Virus record (IMG/VR): IMGVR_UViG_3300044729_001357
Location: 1 to 26,863 of that record
Direction: 5' to 3' (one strand)
DNA from: a virus
Length of the DNA stretch: 26,863 nt
Under the pieces are notes generated by a model. The model had not been told where the DNA came from. It ran no database searches and worked only from the letters and a program-made list of their open reading frames with translations. Of this stretch, positions 1 to 26,863 are shown piece by piece (the stretch's first letter is position 1; each line of letters starts with the position of its first letter). A program made the position numbers and the translations under genes.

Positions 1-96
1 CGTCGCCAGCGTCGGCCCTCTGTACGAGCCTGCTATGGCGTCCGTGGTGTCGGTTGTCGGCGGCGAGATCGTGCCATCCATGAGGGGTTGGGTCAT
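1..96 (-). CDS. Start of an unidentified gene, cut by window edge
   Basis: The ATG at 96-94 overlaps the TGA of the preceding 69-residue gene (ATGA), and the frame stays open for 32 codons to the edge of the window. The visible N-terminus begins MTQPLMDG and is rich in Thr, Pro and Asp (residues 10-20), so it looks like a flexible leader. Too little is present to assign a family. In T7-like gene orders, the region after the tail fibres holds lysis and terminase genes, so either is possible, but this is only positional inference. Confidence 0.55.
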   Translation of the reverse strand, partial: MTQPLMDGTISPPTTDTTDAIAGSYRGPTLAT

Positions 97-302
97 CCCT
101 TGGAATCCACCTTACGACGACGCTTCTTCCGATAGGCGGCGGGGTCCACGCAGAAGCCGAGGGGGCCTCGCTGGGGTTCAAACGGTCTCCCCGGCGGGTC
201 CGACGAGCGGAGTTCCGCGATGCTTCCCGCGAACGCTTCGCCAAGGTGCGACCCTACCTCATGCCAGTCGGGGTCATCGTACTTTACGCGACGCCTTGGC
301 AT
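93..302 (-). CDS. Small basic protein of unknown function
   Basis: A 69-residue ORF starting MPRRRVKYDD. The ATG at 302 was chosen over an upstream start at 326 because a purine-rich SD (GGGAGGG) lies just before it. It overlaps the 3' end of the metallophosphoesterase gene by 29 bases and ends in an ATGA overlap with the next gene. The C-terminus is strongly basic (KKRRRK near residues 60-65), which could suit nucleic-acid binding. I recognise no family. A small terminase subunit was considered from position alone, but the protein is short for one and no helix-turn-helix is evident. Confidence 0.6.
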   Translation of the reverse strand: MPRRRVKYDDPDWHEVGSHLGEAFAGSIAELRSSDPPGRPFEPQRGPLGFCVDPAAYRKKRRRKVDSKG

Positions 303-1434
303 TGGCCCTCCCGCGCTTGGCCTCAAGGATCTCGGACGCCTCTGCCAAGTCCGTGTAGGCGTTCACGCTGCCCCGAGCCGGGTCCACGACGATGCCCACG
401 GTCGAGCCGTAGTTGCTCGCCTGAGAGGCATATTGGTGCATGGCGGCGAAGCTGTCGATGTGCTTGTAGCCCCGCGCACGGACCAGCCAGAAGGGCTTGT
501 GCCCCTTGTCCGCGTCCTGACCCTGATAGATCTCCGCGTGGTGCTGGTGCCCGGCGCAGAGGATGTCGGCCTCGCCCGAGGAGAACTTGTGCGCCCGCAT
601 CAGCCCATGGACGGGGTTGTAGATGGACGATCCCTTGAAGTCGTGCCGGGCGTCCACCTTGAGCACATGGCCCGAGGGCGTGGCGACCTCGAACTGGGCC
701 ATCCAGTCCTCCTTCACCGCATGGCCCCGAGCCATCCAGTCAAGCGGGTCTCCGTTGCCGTGCGATGAGGACCAGAGGTCGTGGTTGCCAGCGATGATCA
801 CCATCCACGGCACGGCCCGGAAGAACCACTCGGCCAACTGCCATGCTTGCGAGCGGGTGGTCGGCTGCTCCGCATAGAGCTTCACGAGCCTCCCGGACCA
901 GTTGTTCGTCACATCGCCCAAGCAGATCGCATGGACATGGGGTCGGCGCATCAACTCCACATCGCGCTTCAGCAGGGGCCAGTTGCAGCCGGGATCATCC
1001 AGATGAGGGTCCCCGACCACGGCCAGCATGTAGGGGCCATCGTCGCGGAGGCTAAAGCGCATCCACTTCTTGGCAGCCTCATGCCGGGCCTTGCGCTCGT
1101 ACCCCTCTGCCAGCTTGTCGATCAGCTTCTCGACCGGGATGTCCGAGGCGGGGATGAAGGGCGGGTCGTAGCGCGGCTCCAGCGGAGGGGCTGGCTGAGA
1201 GACCTCTGTGCAGAGCGACCAGTTGATCTTGCGACCGGCTGCCCGCTCAATGGCGCGGATGTTGTCCTGCCTGCCGTGGACGAAGAGGTTGAGGCGTGAC
1301 ATGGCCTCCGCGAAGGCTGCCCTCTGGCCTGCCTTGGGGTAGTGGCCGGGCGGGACGAAACCCTCGCGCAGGCATTGCTCGATCATCTCAACGCGGCGAA
1401 GGCCCTCTGCCTTGCCGAGACCGGGGTTTGGCAT
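274..1434 (-). CDS. Calcineurin-like metallophosphoesterase
   Basis: A 386-residue protein with the ordered metal-binding motifs of the calcineurin-like phosphoesterase superfamily: D142-x-H144 in GDPHLDD, GDVTNNW (residues 173-179), GNHD (216-219), a lone His in HDFKG (264), and GHQHH (295-299). These motifs coordinate a two-metal centre that hydrolyses phosphoesters; the substrate (DNA, RNA, nucleotide or protein) cannot be told. Residues 13-48 form a helical segment that could be a small DNA-binding or helix-turn-helix module, as in some phage nuclease-type members. The ATG directly abuts the TGA of the upstream 81-residue gene (TGAATG). The C-terminus is basic. It lies after the holin-like gene and before the window edge, in the late region. 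A role in DNA processing at packaging, or a host-directed phosphatase, are both open. Confidence 0.9.
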   Translation of the reverse strand: MPNPGLGKAEGLRRVEMIEQCLREGFVPPGHYPKAGQRAAFAEAMSRLNLFVHGRQDNIRAIERAAGRKINWSLCTEVSQPAPPLEPRYDPPFIPASDIPVEKLIDKLAEGYERKARHEAAKKWMRFSLRDDGPYMLAVVGDPHLDDPGCNWPLLKRDVELMRRPHVHAICLGDVTNNWSGRLVKLYAEQPTTRSQAWQLAEWFFRAVPWMVIIAGNHDLWSSSHGNGDPLDWMARGHAVKEDWMAQFEVATPSGHVLKVDARHDFKGSSIYNPVHGLMRAHKFSSGEADILCAGHQHHAEIYQGQDADKGHKPFWLVRARGYKHIDSFAAMHQYASQASNYGSTVGIVVDPARGSVNAYTDLAEASEILEAKRGRANAKASRKVR

Positions 1435-16760: not shown

Positions 16761-17651
16761 TTACGCGCCAGCCGAAGCGTAGCCGTAGCGCCAGTCGGTG
16801 ACACCCACCGAGAAGCGCGAGGTCGTCTTCGTCTTGAGGATCTCCGTGTCGAACTCGTTGTCACGGGTGATCTCGGCGTTGCGGCGACGGTAGAACGTCG
16901 CGCCCGCCTTGGCGTTCGTGATGATGAACCACGCATCCGGGTCCGTGAGGAACGGGTTCACGATGAGGTCAAGCTGGCCCGCCATCGGATTGATGTCGTT
17001 GTCAGCCGAACCCACCGCGAACTTCGTCCCGAGGATCTTCTCCGCCACGAAGCGGTTGGTCGGAGCGACCAGCAGCTTCTCGGGCATGAGGTTGATCTTC
17101 AGGTCGGAGTCGTCGCGCCAGTCGTGGATGTCGATGTACGCCTGCTCCAGCGACGCCTGCGTCAGGTCCGAGGCAACAGCGGGGATGTTCCGCTGGGTGC
17201 CACCACGGACATTCGGGTGCGTCGAGGAGAAGAAGGACGAGCCATCCGCAGTCAGCATCGTGCTGAAGCCGAGGTTGAAAACCGAAGCGGAGACGGTCTC
17301 TTCCGTCTGACGCATCGACTCAGCCAGCATCTTCGGCACGTTGTTGATGACGTTGTATTGCTCGTCTTCCATCAGTTCGCGGGTGATCGTCGTGCCCAGC
17401 CCGTAGGTCAGGTTGACGTACTCGCGCTGATAGCCCTGAAGCATGTCCACATACGGGACGCTGTCACCATCGTCCTTCTGCCCGACGAGGCCGAAGCCCG
17501 TCACGCCCTGCTCCTTCTCGAACGCCTTGTTCGAGCGACGCAGGATCATGAAGCGGTTCCACAGCGGCGGGTAGCGGCGGTAGGTGTCGGCCCAGATCGT
17601 GGAGATGCCGGGCCACAGGAGTTCAGGGAGATTGCCAGTTCCGGTCGTCAT
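16761..17651 (-). CDS. Major capsid protein
   Basis: 296 residues. It matches the HK97-fold family related to Mu gpT-type major head subunits: an N-terminal LPELLWPGISTIWADTYRRYP (residues 8-28), central YGLGTTITRELMEDEQY (about 83-99), T-E-E-T-V-S-A-S-V-F-N (116-126), the HP-x-x-RGG-T-x-R-N loop (about 144-154), LLVAPTNRFVAEKIL and a C-terminal RFSVGVTDWRYGYASAGA. The length is normal for the family. SD GGGAGGA precedes ATG 17651. It is last in the head cassette and is followed by a terminator, consistent with high expression. It would form the icosahedral shell. Confidence 0.93.
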   Translation of the reverse strand: MTTGTGNLPELLWPGISTIWADTYRRYPPLWNRFMILRRSNKAFEKEQGVTGFGLVGQKDDGDSVPYVDMLQGYQREYVNLTYGLGTTITRELMEDEQYNVINNVPKMLAESMRQTEETVSASVFNLGFSTMLTADGSSFFSSTHPNVRGGTQRNIPAVASDLTQASLEQAYIDIHDWRDDSDLKINLMPEKLLVAPTNRFVAEKILGTKFAVGSADNDINPMAGQLDLIVNPFLTDPDAWFIITNAKAGATFYRRRNAEITRDNEFDTEILKTKTTSRFSVGVTDWRYGYASAGA

Positions 17652-17666: not shown

Positions 17667-18260
17667 TCAGGTCGAGGTGTAGGAGTGGAGGGCGATGCGG
17701 ACCTCAAGGTCGATGTACGCATTGCCCCAAGCCGAGTTGTTGGCGACCGAGCCGAGGCCGCGAGCCTCAGTCGGAGCCAGACCCAGCACCTGAAAGGTCT
17801 TCACGGACGTATCCGCCGAACCCGCACGGATCTGCATCACCGAGGTGCCCGCAGCCGTGTTGCCGTTCGTCGCCGCAGTCAGCGAGACGTACTGCCCGAC
17901 CATCGTCTCCGCAGCGGAGGCGTCGGCCTGACAGATGAACGTGATCTGCTGGCTGTCGTAGACCGCCGCCCACCCAGCCGTCGAGGCGGGGAGGAAGGGG
18001 CCACGGCCCGGCTGACTGAACGTGAGCGGGCGACCGTTCTCGTCGAACAGTTCCGAGACCACGCCGAGGCATCGGGTGTTCGCGGCAGCGTTGGACGAGA
18101 GGCGGATCACGCCGAGGCCCGCCGAGTTGAATCGGACGGGGTCGTTGATGAACAGGCCCTGCGTGTTGCCCGACGCAGTCACTCGATAGAGCTTCGTGCG
18201 AAGGGTGTTGCCAGCGGCCTTGTTCCGAATGGCCTGAAGGCCATAGGGAGCGTCGGTCAT
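17667..18260 (-). CDS. Putative capsid decoration or head-fibre protein
   Basis: 197 residues, beta-rich, beginning MTDAPYGLQAIRNKAAG. The N-terminal pattern (short Gly-Leu-x-x-x-R-N, then strands with T-K-L-Y-R-V) and strands such as FICQADASAAETMVGQYVSL, together with the position directly before the capsid gene, resemble small capsid-associated proteins that stabilise or decorate phage shells. No enzymatic motif is seen. The gene starts 21 bases after the upstream 149-residue gene, with an AAGGAA SD. The decoration role is inferred from neighbourhood and fold type. Confidence 0.7.
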   Translation of the reverse strand: MTDAPYGLQAIRNKAAGNTLRTKLYRVTASGNTQGLFINDPVRFNSAGLGVIRLSSNAAANTRCLGVVSELFDENGRPLTFSQPGRGPFLPASTAGWAAVYDSQQITFICQADASAAETMVGQYVSLTAATNGNTAAGTSVMQIRAGSADTSVKTFQVLGLAPTEARGLGSVANNSAWGNAYIDLEVRIALHSYTST

Positions 18261-18281: not shown

Positions 18282-18731
18282 TTAGTCGATGGTGATGTCG
18301 CCCTCGACGGTGACGCCCGTCTTGGAGCGGATGTCCTTCTTGGTCCTTGTCTTCAGACCCTGAAGCTGCTCCTGAGATGCGTTGCGGTAGTACGCCTCGC
18401 GCTCCTGAGCCATCTCTTCCGGCATCTTCATCAGGACCATGTCCCGATACTCCAGCACACCGGCTGGGCTTCCCTTTCCAGACTCGACCCCATTGGGACG
18501 GTCGTGGACAGCGTCTCCAGCATCCGCCTGCTCCCAGCCTTCGGCACGCTTCTTCAGCATGTTGGCGGGTTCGGCGTGGACCCAGCGAAGCCTGCTGGAC
18601 GAGTCCCTGCTCTTGATGCCGAGAGGCGCGGCGGGGGTCCAGCTACGGTTGCCCTTCTTCGCCGTCTTCTTTCGGCCTTTCATCGAGTCTGCGATCACAC
18701 CGGAACCAGACCCAAGTTCACTATCCGACAT
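18282..18731 (-). CDS. Conserved head-region protein of unknown function
   Basis: 149 residues. The start at ATG 18731 (MSDSELG) is chosen because it lies one base after the scaffold stop and has GGAGGA inside the end of the scaffold gene; the longer frame to 18791 overlaps scaffold coding sequence. The central segment SRLRWVHAEPANMLKKRAEGWE followed by L-E-Y-R-D-M-V-L-M-K-M-P-E-E is a pattern I know from small proteins encoded between scaffold and capsid genes. The charged N-terminus (KGRKKTAKKGNR) and lack of motifs leave the function open; a minor head or scaffold-associated component is likely. Confidence 0.75.
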   Translation of the reverse strand: MSDSELGSGSGVIADSMKGRKKTAKKGNRSWTPAAPLGIKSRDSSSRLRWVHAEPANMLKKRAEGWEQADAGDAVHDRPNGVESGKGSPAGVLEYRDMVLMKMPEEMAQEREAYYRNASQEQLQGLKTRTKKDIRSKTGVTVEGDITID

Positions 18732-18732
18732 T

Positions 18733-19659
18733 TCAGTCCTCCACCGCAACCGCCCTACCGGACAGTCGCTTCTGCTTGAGATACAGTTCATGCGCTTCCT
18801 TGGCTGTCTTCGCCAGAGAACCGCGCGAACCCATGAACATCATCTCCGCAACGGCCCGCTCCTGTGCGGAGAGCGAGTTGCGTTCGCGGTCTTGTGGTGC
18901 CGGTCGGCCACGAGGGGCAGAGAAGGCCCGGCGAACCGGGTTGGGCTGGTCGTCATCCTCCTCGTCATCCGCCCCGAGGATCTTCTCCATGCGCTTGTCC
19001 ACCTCGCGGAGGATCTCGCGCACCGAGGCGTCCGGCATTGCCTTCGCCACCTTCTGGATGAGGTCCTGCGTGGCGGCGAACTCAGGATGGTTGGGCATGG
19101 CCCACGGACGGAGAGGCTCTCCGTCTCCATCCTTCTGGGACTGCCACGAGTTGATGACCTGAACTTCCACCTGAGAGATGGCGGGGTCAGGCTCCTTCGG
19201 AGGCTCGGCCTCCTTCTTGGCCGACTGCCGCATCTCCAGAAGGCGCTCGTTGGCCTCCATGAAGGCTTCCGTGTCGCCCGTGGCGAGGGCTTCCTTGGCG
19301 TCCTTCTTGAGGGTCGCCAGTTCAGCCTGCATCTCCTTGTCCCGCATGCCCCCGGCGATGGTCTCAAGGGCCTTCTGGAGCTTGGTGTTCTGCTCGGCAA
19401 GCAGGGATATCTGCCGCTCGGTCTTCTCCGCTCGCTCGTTCGCCTCCTTGGTGTGGCGATAGAGGCGATTGAAGCGGGCCTTCAGCTTGGGGTCTTCGAT
19501 CTCAACCCAATCCGTTCCCTTCTCTTCGGGTTCCTGATCGACAGCTTTCGGCGCGGCCTTGGGGGCTGCGGCTTCGGTCTTCGCGACAGGAGCCTTCGCA
19601 GGCGCAACAGGAGCGTCGTCATCGGTGACCTCCACGCGATTTCCGATCCTCTCGGTCAT
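18733..19659 (-). CDS. Capsid scaffolding protein
   Basis: 308 residues, hydrophilic and helical. It has an acidic, Pro/Ala/Lys-rich N-terminus (residues 11-48), a long predicted coiled coil (about 55-175, HTKEANERAEKTERQISLLAEQ...), a second helical part (220-255) with an acidic run (DDEEDDD), and a basic C-terminus (LYLKQKRLSGR). This is the usual make-up of phage scaffolds, whose basic C-terminal helix contacts the capsid protein. ATG 19659 overlaps the stop of the GroES-like gene by four bases (ATGA), and the gene precedes the capsid gene by two small genes. No protease motif is seen, so the scaffold may be released intact rather than cleaved. Confidence 0.85.
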   Translation of the reverse strand: MTERIGNRVEVTDDDAPVAPAKAPVAKTEAAAPKAAPKAVDQEPEEKGTDWVEIEDPKLKARFNRLYRHTKEANERAEKTERQISLLAEQNTKLQKALETIAGGMRDKEMQAELATLKKDAKEALATGDTEAFMEANERLLEMRQSAKKEAEPPKEPDPAISQVEVQVINSWQSQKDGDGEPLRPWAMPNHPEFAATQDLIQKVAKAMPDASVREILREVDKRMEKILGADDEEDDDQPNPVRRAFSAPRGRPAPQDRERNSLSAQERAVAEMMFMGSRGSLAKTAKEAHELYLKQKRLSGRAVAVED

Positions 19660-19973
19660 GCGGCGACAGCCTTGGCGTCATCCTCGATGACACCGATGAT
19701 GTCTTCCTCCTGCATGACGTACAGGCCCGGCTCGAAAGCGATGGGCTTGGCCGCCCACTTGCCGAAGAGAACCCGGTCACCGGCCTTCATCACCTCGCAG
19801 GCATCGCCCACGGAGATCACGATGCCTTCGTCGGGGATCATCTTCTCTTCGACCGACTTGGGGATCTCGAAGCCCATCTTGTTCAGGGCCGAGTATTTGG
19901 TGCCGATGGACGCCTGAAGCGTCTCCGCGCGCACCACAACCCTCGCGAAGAGGGGTCGCAGTTTCTTGCTCAT
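19656..19973 (-). CDS. GroES-like co-chaperonin (Cpn10 family)
   Basis: 105 residues, close to the usual 95-100. Cpn10 landmarks appear in order: LRPLFARVVVRAE (residues 5-17, equal to the L-x-D-R-V-L-V strand), a mobile-loop region (about 19-42) ending G-F-E-I-P-K-S, then D-E-G-I-V-I-S-V-G (48-56), V-M-K-A-G-D-R-V-L-F-G-K (61-72) and L-Y-V-M-Q-E-E-D-I-I-G-V-I-E (84-97). The GroEL-contacting IVL tripeptide of E. coli GroES is replaced by F-E-I. The start at 19973 has a GAGGA SD five bases upstream; the longer frame to 20075 crosses the leader hairpins and is rejected. ATGA overlap with the scaffold gene points to a role in head-protein folding with host GroEL, as for T4 gp31. Confidence 0.88.
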   Translation of the reverse strand: MSKKLRPLFARVVVRAETLQASIGTKYSALNKMGFEIPKSVEEKMIPDEGIVISVGDACEVMKAGDRVLFGKWAAKPIAFEPGLYVMQEEDIIGVIEDDAKAVAA

Positions 19974-19984
19974 ACTGTCCTCTT

Positions 19985-20017
19985 TGGGCGGAATGCCCAG
20001 AGAGAACCTAACGGTTC
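19985..20017 (-). promoter_or_regulatory. Two short inverted repeats in the groES-like leader
   Basis: tgggc (19985-19989) pairs with gccca (19995-19999), and gaacc (20004-20008) pairs with ggttc (20013-20017). Together with the 14-base-pair hairpin at 20029-20068 they make most of the 108-base leader potentially structured. The first lies close to the SD (GAGGA) and could affect its exposure. No convincing -35/-10 promoter pair was found here. Confidence 0.4.
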
Positions 20018-20028
20018 CGAAAGTTGTG

Positions 20029-20068
20029 GTAAGGGGGGATGGGGGAGGGACGGACCATCCCCCCTTAC
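20029..20068 (-). promoter_or_regulatory. Perfect 14-bp hairpin in the leader of the head cassette
   Basis: gtaaggggggatgg (20029-20042) and ccatccccccttac (20055-20068) are perfect inverted complements around a 12-base loop. It lies between the stop of the micro-ORF and the GroES-like gene. No U-run follows on either strand, so it is not a classic intrinsic terminator. It could be an RNase III-type processing site, a stability element, or an attenuator. The length and perfection make chance unlikely in otherwise fully coding DNA. Confidence 0.7.
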
Positions 20069-20081
20069 GGGCCATCGCAGC

Positions 20082-20120
20082 TTAACAGCCGCGACCACCC
20101 TTTTTCGGCTTCTTCTTCAT
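20082..20120 (-). CDS. 12-residue micro-ORF with a strong ribosome binding site
   Basis: The frame encodes MKKKPKKGGRGC followed by TAA. The SD TAAGGAGGTGG, five bases before the ATG, is among the strongest in the window and includes the stop of the upstream 302-residue gene. Half of the residues are Lys or Arg and it ends in Cys. It is directly followed by the 14-bp hairpin and the head cassette. It could be a true basic mini-protein, or a leader peptide whose translation controls the downstream hairpin. No family is known to me. Confidence 0.5.
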   Translation of the reverse strand: MKKKPKKGGRGC

Positions 20121-20133
20121 GTTGACCACCTCC

Positions 20134-21042
20134 TTACAGGAAGGCGCGGATGGACTCATAGGAGGAGGCCGAATCCGCAGGGTTGGAGATCGGGCGTCCG
20201 AGGACAGCCGAGGCATACTGCTGTTCGATGGGCAGTATGTATGGGTTCGATACCGGAGCGCCAGCGTCAGAGATCAGCCCCCGCGAGAGGAGGTTGGCGT
20301 AGTACCGGCGCACCGGATCGGTACGGAAAGCGGAGTTCACGCCCTGCGTCCCGTAGGTGGAGATGAGCGCACGCTGCTGGATGTCGCTCATGCCGGGGCC
20401 GATGAAGGAACTGATCTCCTGCGGCGGGGCCATCTCGCCCCCACGGAGGTAGCGGGGCGTGGGGTTGGCGACGGGGACGAATGCCTCGTTCCGCATCTCG
20501 CCAAGGCCAGTACCGAGGTTGCCGGGGAAGCCAGCCTCAAACGCAGAACGCTCGCTGATTGGGTCCTGCACATCATACCCGGCTGCCCTTGCCTCTCTGT
20601 TGAGGGCAGACATTGGTCGGCCAAGAGCCTGCCCCAAGATGCCAAATCCCGGTATCGCATCCGGGTCCATCAGAACTTCGCCAAGCCTTGCCATACCTGT
20701 CTGCACGGGATTGGGCGGCGCGGTTGGGCCAAACTCCTCGCCATACATTACGCCAGCATTGCTGCTGCCGTCAGAGCCGAAAGAAGGGCCAGACCCCATC
20801 CCAAGGTCGCCCTGCGCTGCTGGTCCTTGGTCTCCTCCACCAACGTCAACACCGGCCTCGTAATACTCACGCAGGCCCGTGCGGGGGTTGCGGCTGCCAG
20901 CGCCGCCAAGCGCCTTCAGGAGAGCCTTCTCGCGCGGGTTCACATGGGCAAGCTCGGTGTCCCCATTGCGACCCTGCTTGCGGAGGATCTCCATGGCGGC
21001 GGCACCGGGCGAGGTCTTCATGCGGTTTTGGCGGCGGATCAT
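20134..21042 (-). CDS. Conserved virion-type protein of unknown function
   Basis: 302 residues starting MIRRQNRMKT, with a GGAGAG SD. Residues 27-61 contain GDTELAHVNPREKALLK followed by GGAGSRNPRTGLREYY, a motif I associate with phage internal or head-associated proteins that carry it near one end of otherwise variable sequences. The middle is Gly/Pro-rich and low in structure (65-115); the end is helical. No enzymatic motif is present. The stop codon forms part of the SD of the following micro-ORF. A virion-internal or head-associated role is inferred only. Confidence 0.7.
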   Translation of the reverse strand: MIRRQNRMKTSPGAAAMEILRKQGRNGDTELAHVNPREKALLKALGGAGSRNPRTGLREYYEAGVDVGGGDQGPAAQGDLGMGSGPSFGSDGSSNAGVMYGEEFGPTAPPNPVQTGMARLGEVLMDPDAIPGFGILGQALGRPMSALNREARAAGYDVQDPISERSAFEAGFPGNLGTGLGEMRNEAFVPVANPTPRYLRGGEMAPPQEISSFIGPGMSDIQQRALISTYGTQGVNSAFRTDPVRRYYANLLSRGLISDAGAPVSNPYILPIEQQYASAVLGRPISNPADSASSYESIRAFL

Positions 21043-21061
21043 GCGGCTCTCCGTTTTGCGG

Positions 21062-21283
21062 TCACTCTATGATTCCGGGGGAATCAAGCAACCTCCCTAC
21101 GAGTTGAAGCGCCTCGTCAAAGCCCTGCGCGCGACCCATCGTCAGCAAGTCCTGCGCCATCCGGTAGCGGTGGTGGACGTTCTGCTTGCGGATCTCCTGA
21201 ACGAGGTACTGCGTCACCGGGTGGCGACGCCAGTTCTCCACCTCATCCGGGTCGAGGCGATGGATCACTTCCCCATCTCCCAT
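21062..21283 (-). CDS. Small unknown protein
   Basis: 73 residues starting MGDGEVIHRL, overlapping the end of the upstream gene by 19 bases. The sequence is charged and helical (residues 12-35 and 38-68), with no Cys and no membrane segment. No good SD precedes the ATG, so the start is uncertain and translation is probably coupled. Not recognised; it lies among other small structural-region genes. Confidence 0.65.
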   Translation of the reverse strand: MGDGEVIHRLDPDEVENWRRHPVTQYLVQEIRKQNVHHRYRMAQDLLTMGRAQGFDEALQLVGRLLDSPGIIE

Positions 21284-21741
21284 TGGAGGGCTGCGTCTGG
21301 GTCAGAAAACCCAAGCTCGTCCGGGTTGATCCCGGTCCCGCTTTGGAAGAACTCCTTCCACGTTGTGGGATGATGCGGAGCCTTAAGCATCGTGCCGCTT
21401 GAGGTTCTGGACGGCCAATGAATGCGGTTGTCGTATGGGTCTCGCGACATCTTTGCCTGATCCAGCCAAGCCCCACGATAGTCGTAGTCGGGATTCTCCA
21501 TGAGCATCTGGAAAACTCGCGGGTTATCCAAGTCTGCCAATGGGATACCATCCTCTTTGGCTATCAGATCCTTCATCTCAGAGAACCAATTCGTCCCCAT
21601 CAGCCAGTTCTGGAACTGCTGTTCCTGCCTTGGAGATAGAGCGGTTGGAGACCATTGAGACCCCTTGAATGACTGATACTTTCGATACCAATCAGGGGTT
21701 GCCTGTGCCATCGCCTGTGCAAGCAACTGCGCCCGGTCCAT
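21265..21741 (-). CDS. Conserved phage protein of unknown function
   Basis: 158 residues starting MDRAQLLAQA. Helical N-terminus (2-80) with WYRKYQSFKG...FQNWLMGTNWF, then a C-terminal signature DYDYRGAWLDQ...HWPSRTSSGTMLK followed by HPTTWKEFF (about 86-130). The combination D-Y-D-(Y/L)-R-G-(A/Y)-(W/F)...H-P-T-(F/W) is one I associate with small proteins of many tailed phages, usually in the structural region; no biochemical role is known to me. It starts one base before the stop of the upstream 53-residue gene. Confidence 0.75.
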   Translation of the reverse strand: MDRAQLLAQAMAQATPDWYRKYQSFKGSQWSPTALSPRQEQQFQNWLMGTNWFSEMKDLIAKEDGIPLADLDNPRVFQMLMENPDYDYRGAWLDQAKMSRDPYDNRIHWPSRTSSGTMLKAPHHPTTWKEFFQSGTGINPDELGFSDPDAALQWEMGK

Positions 21742-21742
21742 G

Positions 21743-21904
21743 TCACTTCCTCTTCCTCGCCGCCCTCATGTTGTCCACGAGGTTGGGGTAGGGTCGCCCA
21801 GCCTTCTTGGCTGCCGCCTTGGCGGATGCCTTCTGCGCCGGGGACAGGGCCTTGGGCTTGCCAAGGGACTTCGGGCGGGCGCGGTCCCAGATGGGCTTCT
21901 TCAT
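21743..21904 (-). CDS. Lys/Ala-rich basic mini-protein
   Basis: 53 residues from ATG 21904 (MKKPIWDRARPKSLGKPKAL), one base after the stop of the upstream 80-residue gene. The frame can be read further upstream to 22000, but that part is antisense-like and overlaps the upstream gene. The sequence PKSLGKPKALSPAQKASAKAAAKKAGRPYPNLVDN is a histone-H1-like basic, Ala/Lys-rich helix followed by a conserved-looking YPNLVDNMRAAR end. Similar mini-proteins occur in phage structural regions. A DNA-binding or capsid-internal role is suggested by charge alone. Confidence 0.7.
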   Translation of the reverse strand: MKKPIWDRARPKSLGKPKALSPAQKASAKAAAKKAGRPYPNLVDNMRAARKRK

Positions 21905-21905
21905 G

Positions 21906-22148
21906 TCAGCACTTCCATGCACGGAGGGACTTTCGGAGCCTGCTGTTTGGGTCCTTGGCAGCGGCGGGGAACTTCTTTGCCATCCCGCCCATCCTCGCAC
22001 AGAACGACCTCTTGCGCGGCCCCCCTTCCGGCTGCGGGGGCTTGAGCGTCCCCCCCGTTGCGGCCTTGTAGCTGGCCCGGCCCTTGGCGTTCAAACCACC
22101 CTTTGGATTCTGCCCGGCTTTGCGCTGCCATGCGGGGGTCTTCGGCAT
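21906..22148 (-). CDS. Basic mini-protein, DUF6321-like
   Basis: 80 residues starting MPKTPAWQRK, with a GGAGTG SD six bases upstream. It carries N-P-K-G-G-L-N-A-K-G-R-A-S-Y (residues 14-27), then A-T-G-G-T-L-K and later S-F-C-A-R-M-G-G-M (48-56), ending WKC. This set matches a small family I recall as DUF6321, found in phages, function unknown; not searched here. The two Cys and many Lys/Arg would suit nucleic-acid or metal contact. It is followed at once by the 53-residue basic gene. Confidence 0.75.
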   Translation of the reverse strand: MPKTPAWQRKAGQNPKGGLNAKGRASYKAATGGTLKPPQPEGGPRKRSFCARMGGMAKKFPAAAKDPNSRLRKSLRAWKC

Positions 22149-22157
22149 CAGTCACTC

Positions 22158-22616
22158 CTATGAGTTGAGAAGGAGGAAGACGACATCCTCGTCATCCTCG
22201 CGAAGGGAAATCTCCCTGTCCAGCGTCGCGCGCAGCTTGGCGTTGACGGCTCGGGACAGGCGCTCCTGCTCGGCAAGGCGGGCTTCCAGTTCGTTGACCC
22301 GCCTCAGTTCCTTGCGGATCTTCCTGACGGCACGGTCGCCAAGGATCTGCTTGGCAAGGTTGTTGGTGCTGATCGTGGCGGCGGGAGCGATGACCTCTTC
22401 GTTGACCACCACCTGTGGGTCGAGGTTCTCTGGCGTGACGCGGAGGTAGACGCCGGGCGAGACCTGACGGATGAACGATCCCGGAATCTTCTGGTAGGAC
22501 GCCCACCGCTGGAACTTCTGGGGTACGGACGGGCCGGTCTGGACAGGCGGGACAGCACCGTAGCCCCACGAATCCGACCATGAGGTGCCCCATGAGTCGC
22601 CCCAACTTGCGAACAT
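22158..22616 (-). CDS. Unknown protein with SWG repeats and C-terminal coiled coil
   Basis: 152 residues. The ATG at 22616 overlaps the stop of the upstream gene (TGATG) and is preferred over a start at 22631 that lies inside it. Residues 4-18 hold three short repeats (SWGDSWG, TSWSDSWG). A mid-region of about 40 residues is beta-type, and residues about 95-140 form a charged coiled coil (KIRKELRRVNELEARLAEQERLSRAV). The SWG repeat is seen at the N-termini of some phage structural-region proteins. Function is unknown; an oligomeric virion component is plausible. Confidence 0.7.
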   Translation of the reverse strand: MFASWGDSWGTSWSDSWGYGAVPPVQTGPSVPQKFQRWASYQKIPGSFIRQVSPGVYLRVTPENLDPQVVVNEEVIAPAATISTNNLAKQILGDRAVRKIRKELRRVNELEARLAEQERLSRAVNAKLRATLDREISLREDDEDVVFLLLNS

Positions 22617-23158
22617 CACACGGGGTTCCAAGGATCAGCGGTGGTGCCGGTGCCCTTGACCTGAATGTCGTTGACGTACTGGATGTTGGCGTCCACCTGA
22701 CCGGCGACCGTGAAAGCAAGCGAGTCGGTCTTGGCCTTGATTGCGGTGACTTTGGTGTCGGTTGTGGTGAGATCGGAGGTTGTGGCAAGACCGCTCTGGA
22801 TCTCCGTCACCGCATCGGCAGCGATGGACGCAGCCGTTATGACGTTGTTTGCCAGCGAGGAGACCGTGACGCTGTCGCCGGGGAGGGCCGCGAAGACCTC
22901 CTCGCGAACGTCGGTCGGGTCCGCGCCCGAGGCCGTGACATGAACGACGAAGTCGCCCAGCGTGTCGGTGTGCGCCGTGGTCAGGGCCAGCGAATACCAG
23001 CCGACGCCAAGCTCGGTCACGGTCGGGGTGATTGACGCGAAGGCCGCACCGCTCTTGCTTGCCGAGATCGTGAGCGTCAGGCCGGTCGCGCCCGTGATGT
23101 GATCGGTGCTGCTGATCATCAGCACCATCAGGTTGCGCGCCGTCGATTGCTTCAGCAT
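22616..23158 (-). CDS. Phage appendage protein with Ig-like N-terminal domain
   Basis: 180 residues from ATG 23158 (MLKQSTARNLMVLMISS); the longer frame to 23374 overlaps the previous gene and is rejected. Residues 17-95 read as one Ig-like beta-sandwich: HITGATGLTLTISASKSGAAFA, a middle strand set, GWYSLALTTAHTDTLGDFVVHVTASGADP. This domain is common in phage tail or baseplate accessory proteins. The C-terminal half is a Thr/Ala/Asp-rich helical stalk (115-165) ending DPWNPV. It would be a small fibre or connector in the spike cluster. Confidence 0.75.
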   Translation of the reverse strand: MLKQSTARNLMVLMISSTDHITGATGLTLTISASKSGAAFASITPTVTELGVGWYSLALTTAHTDTLGDFVVHVTASGADPTDVREEVFAALPGDSVTVSSLANNVITAASIAADAVTEIQSGLATTSDLTTTDTKVTAIKAKTDSLAFTVAGQVDANIQYVNDIQVKGTGTTADPWNPV

Positions 23159-23162
23159 GGCA

Positions 23163-24404
23163 TCACCTGTTGACGACGCGGCTGCGGGAGTAGGTCTCCC
23201 CGCCAGCCGGGGCAGAGGGCGGCGGGTAGTGGAGGATCGTGGCTTCGATGTTGTAGTTGATGAAGGTGCTGTTCGACAGAAGCCCGGCGGTCCCGGCGAG
23301 CAGGCCCACGCCCTCACCCGGCCGCACGATGATCCCGTTGCCCGGCTCGGCGGCGAAGATGTCGATGTCAGCAAGTCCGTTTAGCTGAATGCCGTTTAGC
23401 GACTGCCCGATGGCTCCGAACACCTTCATCGCTGGGTTGCGCCGGAACACGCCAGCATTCTGCTGCTGGAGGACGCTGATCGTTGCGCCATGCGTGTAGG
23501 ACCAGTCCCATTGCCACGAGCCTTCAAGACGCGAGCGGAACGGGCCGACGACGGCGCGCATGCTCGCGGGAGTCGAGACGGTCGTGTCGGGCTTGATGAT
23601 GTTCGCCGCGTCAGCCGAGGTGTCGAGGCCAAAGATGCGCGCAAGGCGTAGATTGACGGCAGGCACGGTGAGGGAGAGCGAGGTGGTGGCGTTGGTCTCT
23701 TCGTCCAGCGGGATGAACGCTACGCGCACGGCCAGCGCGACGCCGCTGCCAGAAGCGTTGAACAGGCTGACGAGGGGGCCGTCAATCAGGGCATTGGTGG
23801 CAACGTCCGTGCTGAGGTAGGCGTAGGTCGCGCCCGTCGCGGTGTTGGCGACGAACATCGCCACGATCATGCCGTGTGGAACGCCGTACTCTGTCTGCGT
23901 GACTGCAACTCCCTCGCCCTCGCGCAGGACGATTGGCTCCACATCGACGCTCGCGCCGAAGTCGCCAAGCGTTGCAAAGGCGTCGTGCTTCCACGTTACC
24001 AAGCCGCCGCTGAACTGCCGCGACGAAAGGCTCGTGCCACCAATGGCTGCGAAATATGTTGGGGCATCAGCAATGAGCTTGAGGGCAATTCCAGAGGTCG
24101 TGACGCTGTTGGGGTTGGTCGTGAACGTCACCTCAGATGGCAGGCTGGCCGATGCGGTGTCGTGTTTGAGGGGCGAGACAGCATCACCGCCGCTGCTCGC
24201 CGTGGTGCGAAAGAGGGCAAGAGCGCCCGCGCGACCCGAGCCGTACTGCGCGTTGCTTGTCGGCGCGACGGGCGAAAGCCTGAGATTGACCAACTCGTAA
24301 TACCGGCGCAAGTCAGATGCCTCGTCGTTGAAGATGGCGAATAACCCATCCTCAAGCGGACGCACATTGACTGCGCGCTGGTAGACGAGGAAGGTCTCAG
24401 GCAT
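23163..24404 (-). CDS. Spike-like beta protein, related to the 173-residue neighbour
   Basis: 413 residues, wholly beta-type, starting MPETFLVYQR; it overlaps the end of the 59-residue gene by eight bases. Residues 71-90 (GDAVSPLKHDTASASL) match GTAVTPVKHDTNSSAL of the 173-residue protein at 24580-25101, and later VEPIVLREGEG matches VEPIVCRATQG, so the two genes are paralogues. A second copy of the R-x-GEGV strand (about 362-370) points to an internal duplication. No catalytic motif is visible. Likely a virion surface protein; the exact site is not determined. Confidence 0.75.
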   Translation of the reverse strand: MPETFLVYQRAVNVRPLEDGLFAIFNDEASDLRRYYELVNLRLSPVAPTSNAQYGSGRAGALALFRTTASSGGDAVSPLKHDTASASLPSEVTFTTNPNSVTTSGIALKLIADAPTYFAAIGGTSLSSRQFSGGLVTWKHDAFATLGDFGASVDVEPIVLREGEGVAVTQTEYGVPHGMIVAMFVANTATGATYAYLSTDVATNALIDGPLVSLFNASGSGVALAVRVAFIPLDEETNATTSLSLTVPAVNLRLARIFGLDTSADAANIIKPDTTVSTPASMRAVVGPFRSRLEGSWQWDWSYTHGATISVLQQQNAGVFRRNPAMKVFGAIGQSLNGIQLNGLADIDIFAAEPGNGIIVRPGEGVGLLAGTAGLLSNSTFINYNIEATILHYPPPSAPAGGETYSRSRVVNR

Positions 24405-24576
24405 CGGGCGTCACGACGACAAATTCGCTGTACCGCGACGGCACCTTGCACCCGGGACAGACGATGGGAGGCGACGCCGGGCCAAGCCCTCCATTGATGT
24501 CGTTCTCCACGCGGGAGGCGAAGGACTCCTCCACCTCCCACTCATGCAAACAAGCCTTGTGGCGCAGCGTCTTCAT
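24397..24576 (-). CDS. 59-residue zinc-ribbon-like protein
   Basis: An ATG at 24576, four bases after the TAA of the 173-residue gene, opens a 59-codon frame ending at 24397. It starts MKTLRHKACLHEWEVEESFA and holds C9-x-H11 and C40-P-G-C43, a potential four-ligand metal site like the small zinc ribbons of phages, with the first knuckle reduced from CxxC to CxH. The -EWE- after the first pair is typical of such ribbons. It fills a gap that would otherwise be 175 bases without a gene. The SD is weak, so coupling to the upstream gene is likely. Confidence 0.75.
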   Translation of the reverse strand: MKTLRHKACLHEWEVEESFASRVENDINGGLGPASPPIVCPGCKVPSRYSEFVVVTPDA

Positions 24577-24579
24577 GGC

Positions 24580-25101
24580 TTACGTCGCAGAATCGGTGAA
24601 CTCGATTTCGAGATCGGCGGTGCCCACCGTCGAGGAGCCCGAATGGAAAAGCTCGAATCCTTGGGTGGCGCGGCAGACGATAGGCTCCACGTTCGTGTCG
24701 CTGTAGCCAGCGTTCCAGACCTCCGCGAACGGGATCAGCGTCAGCCAGTTGGCCTGCGTCGTACCGGCCACCACGGGCTCCTCGTTCACGAAGAGGAAGC
24801 GGCGGAAGATGTCGCTGCCGGTGACCGTCTGGTTGGTGCCACAGGTCGTGCTGGCGTTAAGGGCCGACGAGTTGGTGTCGTGCTTCACGGGCGTCACAGC
24901 GGTGCCGACCGAAGCTGCCGTGATGCGGCGGCATTGGGCAGTCGTGATGACGCCGGTCACCGCTGTGGTGCCGTTGTTGAACCAATACGCCCTGTAGGCG
25001 CGGATGATGCGCGTCGATGCGGTGGCGTTGAAAACGTTGAGCATGTCCTTGCTGGAAGCATACGCCACCGCACCAGAGGTCGCTCGCCAAGTCGCTGCCA
25101 T
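24580..25101 (-). CDS. Spike-like beta protein, paralogue of the 413-residue protein
   Basis: 173 residues from ATG 25101 (MAATWRATSG), one base after the stop of the 100-residue gene. Beta-rich, with TAVTPVKHDTNSSAL (68-81) and NVEPIVCRATQGFELFHSG (137-155) shared with the larger neighbour at 23163-24404. It resembles a single copy of the beta-sandwich unit from which the larger one is built. Four Cys are spread without pattern. A virion surface or appendage role is inferred. Confidence 0.75.
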   Translation of the reverse strand: MAATWRATSGAVAYASSKDMLNVFNATASTRIIRAYRAYWFNNGTTAVTGVITTAQCRRITAASVGTAVTPVKHDTNSSALNASTTCGTNQTVTGSDIFRRFLFVNEEPVVAGTTQANWLTLIPFAEVWNAGYSDTNVEPIVCRATQGFELFHSGSSTVGTADLEIEFTDSAT

Positions 25102-25102
25102 G

Positions 25103-25405
25103 TCAGGCTCCCATGTCCATGATTGTCTTGCCGGTGCCCTGCGTCGCGCCGAACACCGTGATCTCCCCGCGCCCGTCCATGCTCGGGCCAGCAGCCCATT
25201 GCTGGATGCGGTTCTCGTTGAGTGCGCGGACGCTTGCGTCAAGATCGTCGCGGATGTCGCCCGGCATCAGCCCGATGCGACGCCCCGCTTGGATCTTCAA
25301 CATGAACTCCTTGCAAGCGCGTACATGACGCTCGGCAAGGGGCTGCTCCGTCCTTAGCAACCAGCAATCCATTGCCGGTCGCCACTCCATCGCTGGCTGC
25401 TTCAT
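25103..25405 (-). CDS. 100-residue protein ending in a P-loop-like motif
   Basis: Starts MKQPAMEWRP at ATG 25405, overlapping the portal stop by four bases. The body is helical and basic (residues 17-70). Near the end, a beta-strand-like E-I-T-V-F runs into G-A-T-Q-G-T-G-K-T followed by I-M-D-M, which fits the Walker A pattern A-x4-G-K-T (87-94). The protein stops eight residues later, leaving no room for the rest of an NTPase fold, so nucleotide hydrolysis is doubtful. The function is unknown; its position after the portal suggests a head or connector role. Confidence 0.7.
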   Translation of the reverse strand: MKQPAMEWRPAMDCWLLRTEQPLAERHVRACKEFMLKIQAGRRIGLMPGDIRDDLDASVRALNENRIQQWAAGPSMDGRGEITVFGATQGTGKTIMDMGA

Positions 25406-26863
25406 TGCATCATCCCTCCGGGTACGACCTCGACGCCCTCCGCCCTGCCATCGGCACCACGAATGATCCTTCGCGGCGCGCCCATGGACTGCATGAGGGA
25501 CTGGATCATCTGCATCATGCGCTGGTCGCGGGCAGCGTTCTGGGCGTCCATCTGAGCGATCATGGAGCGCACATCCTCGCCCATGCTCGTCGCAAGCTGT
25601 TGCGTGGACGAGGTCACGGCTTCGATGCCGGGGACATCCGCACCGGCAGCACCGATGCGCGCCACCATGATCTTCGTGTCGGCCTCCATCTTGGCCTTCT
25701 GGGCCTCCATGGCTTGCTTGGCGACGAGTTCCTGCTGGACGCGCATGTTCTCGTACTCTTGCTTCATGCGCGCGATTTCGGCCTCGTTCTGGATTCGCAT
25801 CTCCTGCAACATCCGCTCGTTTTCGATGCGAAGCTGCTGAAGCTGCTGGTCCCCAACCATCTGCGCCTGCTTCATCTGCTGATCGACTTGCATCTTCTGC
25901 GCTTCGATCTGCAACTGCTGCTGCGCCGACTCGGCCTCTAGCTGGAGCTTCTGCTGCTCGACCTGAACCTTGGCCTGCTCAGCCATCGCCTTCGGATCCG
26001 GCGGAGGCGGCGGAAGTTCGTCCACGCTTCTCGGAAGAATGCCATCAATGCCGTCAATTTCCATCTCCTCCAACAGCCTCCTCGACACCGCAAGGAGGGC
26101 TTCCGGGTTGTTCGCCACAAGGGGATTGTTCTTGGCGAACTCGAACAGGAACTGTGCCTTCTGGACCCTGCTCTGCTGGTTCATCATGCGGGGATCGGCC
26201 ACCGGCATGATGAGCATGTCGTCCATGAAGTCCTGCTCGGTTACGACCATCTCCTCCGGACCCTCCGGAGTGACCGAGATGAAGCTCTCGATTCCACGGA
26301 AGTAGATTCCGTGGAGGCGATAGATCTTGTTCAGTTCCTTGGACCAAGAGTGCAGCAGGAACTCCTGCACCGAGGTGAACATCACCAGCGACTGCTCGAC
26401 CATCGTCTGCATGGTCGTGGGCTGGAAAACTTTGTTGATGTCGCCCGCAGCAGCATCCGTGGTCGCGCCAATGCGCTGGGCGCGCGTCTCAAGCTGGGCA
26501 ATGGCCTGCATGAGGGTGGGAGGCGGCGCGGGGAAGGACAGCGTCTTGATGCCCTTCTGGATGTCGTCCGTGCTGGCCGAGACCGTCTTCAGGCTGCCGA
26601 GTTCGATCTTCACCGGCCCCTTGCTGATGTTCAGGGCCTCCGAGATGAACCCGCTCATGTTGCCGTGGATCGACAGCGTGGTCGCGTCAATGAACTGGCG
26701 CAGGAGCTTGTTGACCGCGATGTTCGTCTTGCCCAGAAGGAAGCCAAGACCGTAGCCGTAGAAGCCGTCCGGGTTCACGAGGAAGCGGTAGTGCGTGTAT
26801 TCCTCAATCGGGAGGCGACCATTCAATGGTAGCCCTGACTGGTCTACCTCATACCGCACTTCG
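25402..26863 (-). CDS. Portal protein (5' part missing at window edge)
   Basis: About 487 residues of the C-terminal part; the frame runs off the window, and the GTG near 26859 is internal rather than the true start. The segment G-F-Y-G-Y-G-L-G-F-L-L-G...N-K-L-L-R-Q-F-I-D-A-T-T-L followed by E-L-N-K-I-Y-R-L-H-G is typical of podovirus (P22-like) portal proteins, whose ring forms the DNA entry vertex. After a Pro-rich hinge (P-P-P-P-P) comes a very long Gln/Met/Glu-rich coiled coil (about residues 290-400 of the visible part), as in the barrel domains of such portals. It overlaps the downstream 100-residue gene by ATGA. Confidence 0.88.
   Translation of the reverse strand, partial: EVRYEVDQSGLPLNGRLPIEEYTHYRFLVNPDGFYGYGLGFLLGKTNIAVNKLLRQFIDATTLSIHGNMSGFISEALNISKGPVKIELGSLKTVSASTDDIQKGIKTLSFPAPPPTLMQAIAQLETRAQRIGATTDAAAGDINKVFQPTTMQTMVEQSLVMFTSVQEFLLHSWSKELNKIYRLHGIYFRGIESFISVTPEGPEEMVVTEQDFMDDMLIMPVADPRMMNQQSRVQKAQFLFEFAKNNPLVANNPEALLAVSRRLLEEMEIDGIDGILPRSVDELPPPPPDPKAMAEQAKVQVEQQKLQLEAESAQQQLQIEAQKMQVDQQMKQAQMVGDQQLQQLRIENERMLQEMRIQNEAEIARMKQEYENMRVQQELVAKQAMEAQKAKMEADTKIMVARIGAAGADVPGIEAVTSSTQQLATSMGEDVRSMIAQMDAQNAARDQRMMQMIQSLMQSMGAPRRIIRGADGRAEGVEVVPGGMMQ

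Follow-up and report, generated by a model that had tools for sequence, protein, structure and literature searches.

A divergent Cpn10 co-chaperonin with a long mobile loop and a reduced roof behaves as a fixed member of a phage head cassette

The Cpn10 family is well known, and its phage-encoded members have been described in several settings. In T4, gp31 replaces GroES to fold gp23 (PMC3012670), and it differs from GroES in having a flexible loop of 22 rather than 16 residues and in missing the roof (PMC6318259). Why T4 needs gp31 over GroES is still argued: a larger chamber has been offered as the reason, though according to the review that reports this, subtler features may matter (PMC3012670). 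For HTVC023P-type pelagiphages, GroES has been reported as part of the core genome (PMC9599517); it is also carried by CRP-901-type phages (PMC10149686) and encoded by the Pseudoalteromonas siphovirus B8b (PMC4294664).

The DNA that we analysed, hereafter the window, is an IMG/VR virus record of 26,863 bases, linear and probably a fragment. On its minus strand, an ORF of 105 aa runs from an ATG at 19973 to a TGA at 19658-19656. A reading based on the sequence only had placed a GroES-like gene at 19656-19973 and proposed a Cpn10 profile search; the coordinates are correct, and the assignment is borne out by the Pfam profile PF00166 (Cpn10), which matches from position 1 to 93 of 93 (E=2e-8, 34.6 bits against a gathering score of 21.1). 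In addition, PHROG 3188, ‘co-chaperonin GroES’, matches at 3e-7 and the solved GroES 8wuc at 2e-7. The NCBIfam GroES models give E values down to 1e-11, but at 20-45 bits they stay below their cut-offs of 96-215, and this score, together with a roof segment of only 8 residues, sets the protein apart from the canonical bacterial GroES equivalog. The protein is a true but divergent member of Cpn10, not a GroES equivalog. Within its clade of close relatives, the gene is under purifying selection (dN/dS about 0.06-0.15), with amino-acid change faster in the loop than elsewhere in the protein. The gene and the parts of it discussed below are as follows.

19656..19973, minus strand: Cpn10/GroES-like co-chaperonin gene, 105 aa (PF00166 E=2e-8; PHROG 3188; AlphaFold2 model with GroES chains on top; purifying selection)
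19827..19931, minus strand: codons for residues 15-49, the mobile-loop segment with its added length (counted between alignment anchors in 15 clade sequences; low pLDDT)
19860..19874, minus strand: G-F-E-I-P, aligned with the GroEL-contacting GGIIIP / GGIVL motif (alignments)
19782..19805, minus strand: codons for residues 57-64, the shortened roof segment (anchored alignment count; model without a roof hairpin)
19656..19659, minus strand: ATGA stop-start overlap of the co-chaperonin and scaffold-like genes (sequence; junction alike in nearly all clade loci)

An AlphaFold2 model of the monomer, built from 24 related sequences, contains a confident barrel (core pLDDT above 90) and a stretch of low confidence at about residues 17-45, as expected of a mobile loop. 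The structures closest to the model are GroES/Cpn10 chains (VIA Z 9-10.6), with gp31 at Z 8.3 and 7.5. The sequence-only reading had expected a genuine Cpn10 to show both the barrel and the roof hairpin; the barrel is present and the roof hairpin is absent, and since T4 gp31 is also roofless (PMC6318259), absence of the roof is the wrong test for a Cpn10. To put numbers on both parts, residues were counted between fixed alignment anchors, which for the loop are V14 and G50. The loop segment has 35 residues in 15/15 distinct clade sequences, compared with 25 in nine bacterial GroES, 30 in T4 gp31 and 28-45 in more distant relatives that carry the same cassette (cassette cousins), which agrees with the earlier suggestion that the mobile loop is lengthened at about residues 19-42. 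The short roof had escaped that reading: its segment has 8 residues in all 15 distinct clade sequences, while bacteria have 16-17, gp31 has 10 and the cassette cousins range over 9-27. The replacement of the I-V-L tripeptide by F-E-I was read correctly, as FEI occupies residues 35-37 and aligns with the bacterial motif. Across the clade the tripeptide is FEI, FQV, FKV or FEV, always with a polar middle residue (E/Q/K), and the predicted GroEL-contact motif G-F-[EQK]-[IV]-P falls in the low-confidence loop of the model. Two cassette cousins, L035 (4657-4992) and L057 (2972-3304), combine a roof of 9 residues with a loop segment of 30 and are the only cousins with so short a roof; in them the roof was lost without a loop of clade length, and hence roof loss and loop growth are separable.

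Set against the known systems, the protein resembles bacterial GroES of the alphaproteobacterial type in its full-length PF00166 match, its barrel fold, its loop motif G-h-x-h-P and 36-39% identity, but differs in both segment lengths (loop 35 not 25, roof 8 not 16-17), in having no groEL beside it and in its location in a capsid cassette. With T4 gp31 and RB49 CocO it shares its nature as a phage co-chaperonin, the longer mobile loop, the missing roof (PMC6318259) and the precedent of a capsid client (PMC3012670). Because gp31 has both a long loop and no roof, the pair of changes in the clade is of the same kind, and in shape the protein falls with gp31 (loop 35 versus 30, roof 8 versus 10). 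In sequence, however, it is not of the gp31 family: PHROG 931 gives E=0.0076 for it and 3e-50 for gp31 itself, and PHROG 3188 matches better. Moreover, gp31 is encoded outside the head cluster, and the capsid protein of T4 is about 56 kDa, whereas the one encoded here is 33 kDa. GroES of the HTVC023P, CRP-901 and QDWS535 type of podovirus shares the slot between the portal and the scaffold-like gene as well as the capsid family. These podovirus-cassette proteins are 18-27% identical to the window protein; those of the HTVC023P/CRP-901 type differ in having a bacterial-like loop motif, a roof of at least normal length and, in many of them, an extended N terminus, while that of QDWS535 has a long loop and a roof of 15. 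The GroES of B8b, which we liken by description and not by sequence, is encoded just before the tail tape-measure gene and not in such a head cassette (PMC4294664).

The gene is the first in a conserved run of five, in the order Cpn10, scaffold-like, 149 aa, 197 aa and major capsid protein, in keeping with the earlier view that it heads a scaffold-capsid cassette. The remaining genes of the run and the portal gene are given here.

18733..19659, minus strand: scaffold-like gene for an acidic protein of 308 aa (role suggested solely by where it lies and by its composition)
18282..18731, minus strand: cassette gene for a 149-aa protein with distant counterparts in cousins (blastp to L036, L037, L038, L040)
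17667..18260, minus strand: cassette gene for a 197-aa protein (by position; weakly matched by L041)
16761..17651, minus strand: major capsid protein of 296 aa and 33.2 kDa, the probable client (PF25209 6e-18, Mu gpT 5e-15; mass)
25402..26859, minus strand: C-terminal part of the portal protein, truncated where the contig ends (PHROG 1216 2e-10; blastp to cousins)

The capsid protein belongs to the PF25209 / Mu gpT-like group of Pfam. The scaffold-like protein of 308 aa has no family match above the cut-off in Pfam, PHROG or NCBIfam, and a longer ORF of the 149-aa gene matches PHROG 36003, a family of unknown function, at 4e-6. A scan of the cassette for sigma-70 promoters and terminators returned nothing exceeding shuffles. 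Between the portal and Cpn10 genes, the window has about 5 kb of clade-only genes (20134-25242, minus strand); in the cassette cousins, this interval holds a single ORF of 55-77 aa that looks helical. As the sequence-only reading stated, four bases are common to the co-chaperonin and scaffold genes, the ATGA at 19659-19656 being shared with the acidic 308-aa ORF. That reading took the overlap as a tight genetic link, which we do not uphold: in other cassettes this junction ranges from overlaps of 4-8 bases to gaps of about 5-73 bases, and with such variability four shared bases say little for a special link.

The link to the capsid family is better judged from how often the two genes occur together. 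Among the 31 nearest IMG/VR relatives of the co-chaperonin (68-100% identity), the scaffold-like and capsid genes adjoin it in every one. Conversely, in a scan for relatives of the capsid protein that kept 80 IMG/VR loci, a Cpn10 ORF was found upstream of the capsid gene in 58, usually 2.0-2.3 kb away, and in 3 more at a lower ORF cut-off. In the 19 remaining contigs, under 2.0 kb of sequence precedes the capsid gene, which leaves no room for a Cpn10 gene; where there is enough upstream sequence to check, Cpn10 is present in 61 of 61 capsid loci. The gene of the window, upstream of the scaffold-like gene and about 2 kb before the capsid gene, occupies the slot that defines this group. Nine capsid relatives from named phages have Cpn10 in the same place, most of them labelled GroES already: the gene is annotated as GroES or chaperonin 10 in Alcaligenes QDWS535, Roseobacter CRP-902, Pelagibacter HTVC027P, Planktothrix Pag-Yong1, DSL-LC04 and three Manatee Spring genomes, and in Caulobacter GB2A it stands unannotated in the same cassette position. 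Thus, Cpn10 behaves as a core gene of this lineage and a fixed member of its head cassette, not as a rare extra. The contrary impression that phage GroES-like genes are uncommon, given by the sequence-only reading, does not hold here, in view of the checkable loci, of the annotations in several phages and of the HTVC023P-type core genome (PMC9599517). L161 (BK063670.1), a virus assigned to Methanomicrobiales whose capsid protein is 28% identical, has one Cpn10 gene (22-378, plus strand), which lies upstream of the terminase gene and not at the scaffold position, and the Mu-like phage JBD26, with a capsid protein 23% identical, has no Cpn10 anywhere in its genome. A search of 12 clade contigs of up to 46.7 kb turned up no Cpn60 (GroEL), and so the partner must be GroEL of the host.

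The leader of the co-chaperonin gene (19974-20100, minus strand) is strongly structured, with a fold-energy z of -7.9.

19977..20007, minus strand: leader hairpin pairing with the co-chaperonin Shine-Dalgarno (SD) sequence (RNA folding z -7.9; SD paired in 17/17 distinct leaders)
20029..20068, minus strand: perfect 14-bp inverted repeat around a loop of 12 nt (relatives have hairpins of altered sequence)
20082..20120, minus strand: 12-codon ORF MKKKPKKGGRGC with a strong Shine-Dalgarno sequence, a possible leader peptide (clade-wide conservation, with synonymous codon changes)

RNAalifold, applied to the leaders as aligned by MAFFT, gave little covariation (2/12 pairs changed on both sides), which is partly due to misalignment of hairpins in L025 and L027; in L027 the large leader hairpin has a sequence unrelated to the others. 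The leaders were instead folded one by one. All 17 distinct clade leaders fold better than shuffles (z -2.8 to -8.0) while their sequences change, and in each the SD sequence is predicted to be paired, with a mean probability of 0.78-1.0. No Rfam family matches the leader or the window. The short ORF, which immediately precedes the leader hairpins, has 12-15 codons across the clade, ends in R-[GS]-C-stop and has many synonymous changes; as third-position changes are largely synonymous, it is probably translated. The structured leader and the ATGA junction together suggest translational control of the co-chaperonin and, by coupling, of the scaffold-like gene.

What might such a protein do? Since Cpn10 genes and this capsid family go together so consistently, we take the capsid protein as the most plausible client, and consider it likely that the phage Cpn10 caps host GroEL and serves the folding of head-cassette products, above all the major capsid protein encoded about 2 kb downstream. 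A heptamer of the protein would then form and dock on host GroEL through G-F-x-[IV]-P, the longer arms and open apex may alter the cage by analogy with T4 gp31, the capsid protein would be the client of the capped cage, and the ATGA could couple translation of the scaffold-like gene to that of the co-chaperonin. The polar middle residue of the predicted contact tripeptide speaks against this explanation. Furthermore, a capsid protein of 33 kDa fits an ordinary cage, so that, if it is the client, its size is not the reason for the open lid; what matters instead may be affinity tuned through the long loop, the open top of the lid or the inner lining of the cage. The proposal of the sequence-only reading that the capsid protein needs a modified GroEL cage therefore stands in part: the link to the capsid is strong (61/61) and the lid is indeed modified, long-looped and roofless, but an enlarged cage is unneeded for a putative client of this mass. 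It is unlikely, in our view, that the protein is a plain supplement to GroES that raises the late dose of co-chaperonin without client specificity, its loop and roof changes being neutral drift. That the nearest sequences are ordinary bacterial GroES (36-39%), that the capsid protein would fit a normal cage and that cousins with the same cassette show the normal short loop motif and a full-length roof would all be in line with this idea, yet the loop and roof lengths are invariant in 15/15 clade sequences despite a spread of about 70-100% identity, dN/dS is low, and the placement in the head cassette is constant. Alternatively, Cpn10 could accompany the capsid gene because the portal, scaffold or tail proteins need it, or simply because the genes are linked in one conserved block. 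In particular, the co-chaperonin gene overlaps the scaffold-like gene and not the capsid gene, and in a siphophage the GroES gene adjoins the tail tape-measure gene (PMC4294664). However, we regard it as quite improbable that one of these other proteins (scaffold-like, portal or tail) is the main client: the scaffold-like protein has no detectable similarity between clade and cousins while the capsid protein is a recognisable constant partner, the Cpn10 gene of the methanogen virus has left the scaffold position and still accompanies the capsid family, and the portal and large tail proteins are above the usual cage limit.

Where the Cpn10 of the clade came from is a separate question. Its best full-length matches outside the clade are bacterial GroES (42-59 bits), the top ones being alphaproteobacterial (36-39% identity, 51-59 bits), whereas the cassette cousins reach about 40 bits at most. 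In three tree builds, one of them from barrel columns only, the clade nests with alphaproteobacterial GroES (98/99, 95/91 and 97/93), although the bacterial GroES in these trees come from plasmid records only and are mostly alphaproteobacterial, which limits the test of origin. We therefore favour, on these sequence comparisons, the reading that an older cassette Cpn10 was replaced in the clade by an alphaproteobacterial-type gene, which may then have been remodelled in a gp31-like way. Vertical inheritance of the cassette gene, with the likeness to bacterial GroES retained or convergent, is nevertheless a real possibility, which we rate only a little short of even. It has to contend with the better bacterial scores and the three trees, but it would explain the unchanged gene position and the ATGA or 8-base overlaps also found in L033 and L034; the nearest capsid cousins are long-looped too, the loop of L138 reads KKMGLEIP against NKMGFEIP in the window, and that of L034 is also similar. 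In addition, two alternative groupings survive the AU tests: one that keeps all bacterial GroES apart as a group of their own (p=0.08, or p=0.32 on the barrel only), and one that unites the clade with its nearest capsid cousins (p=0.08). In view of these tests and the L138 loop, we dropped the claim that replacement by a host gene is proven, and, because bacterial GroES match better, likewise the claim that descent must be vertical since the slot is the same. The fuller form of the replacement reading, in which a host-type alphaproteobacterial GroES replaced the resident co-chaperonin in place and then became an open-topped, long-armed lid for a 33-kDa capsid protein independently of T4 gp31, is more tentative still, and we hold it rather doubtful.

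While the Cpn10 family and the annotation of GroES in this cassette are known already, three things are new as far as could be checked: how constantly the two genes are paired, a roofless long-loop Cpn10 that occurs outside T4-like phages and alongside a small capsid protein, and the structured leader. A literature search, weak in that subscription papers lay mostly outside its scope, found no description of a general link of Cpn10 with the capsid cassette or of the roofless form. A gene that is easily mistaken for a host-like extra thus behaves, in a phage group that is widespread, like part of the core set for head assembly. Moreover, a lineage that pairs a small capsid protein with its own Cpn10, with loops of 28-45 and roofs of 8-27 residues, makes the gp31 question testable by swaps of lid and capsid. 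If replacement and independent remodelling are true, roof loss and long loops would be no answer to client size, and lid and capsid would be an exchangeable, co-evolving pair, further controlled by the leader ORF and an RNA that hides the SD sequence.

As to the wider distribution of the clade, neither the clade alignment nor the single protein, used to scan bacterial and archaeal genome contigs, retrieved any relatives, and hence no prophage or host emerged; a megablast search of named phages with 25 kb of the window gave no match. In tblastn of the 105-aa protein against named phages, the sole match was L042 (CAKLQH020000021.1), which we set aside as an apparent Acinetobacter chromosomal groESL region. 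Although filed as Acinetobacter phage MD-2021a, this record has groES-groEL amid glycerol metabolism and other chromosomal genes, and looks like a mislabelled bacterial contig.
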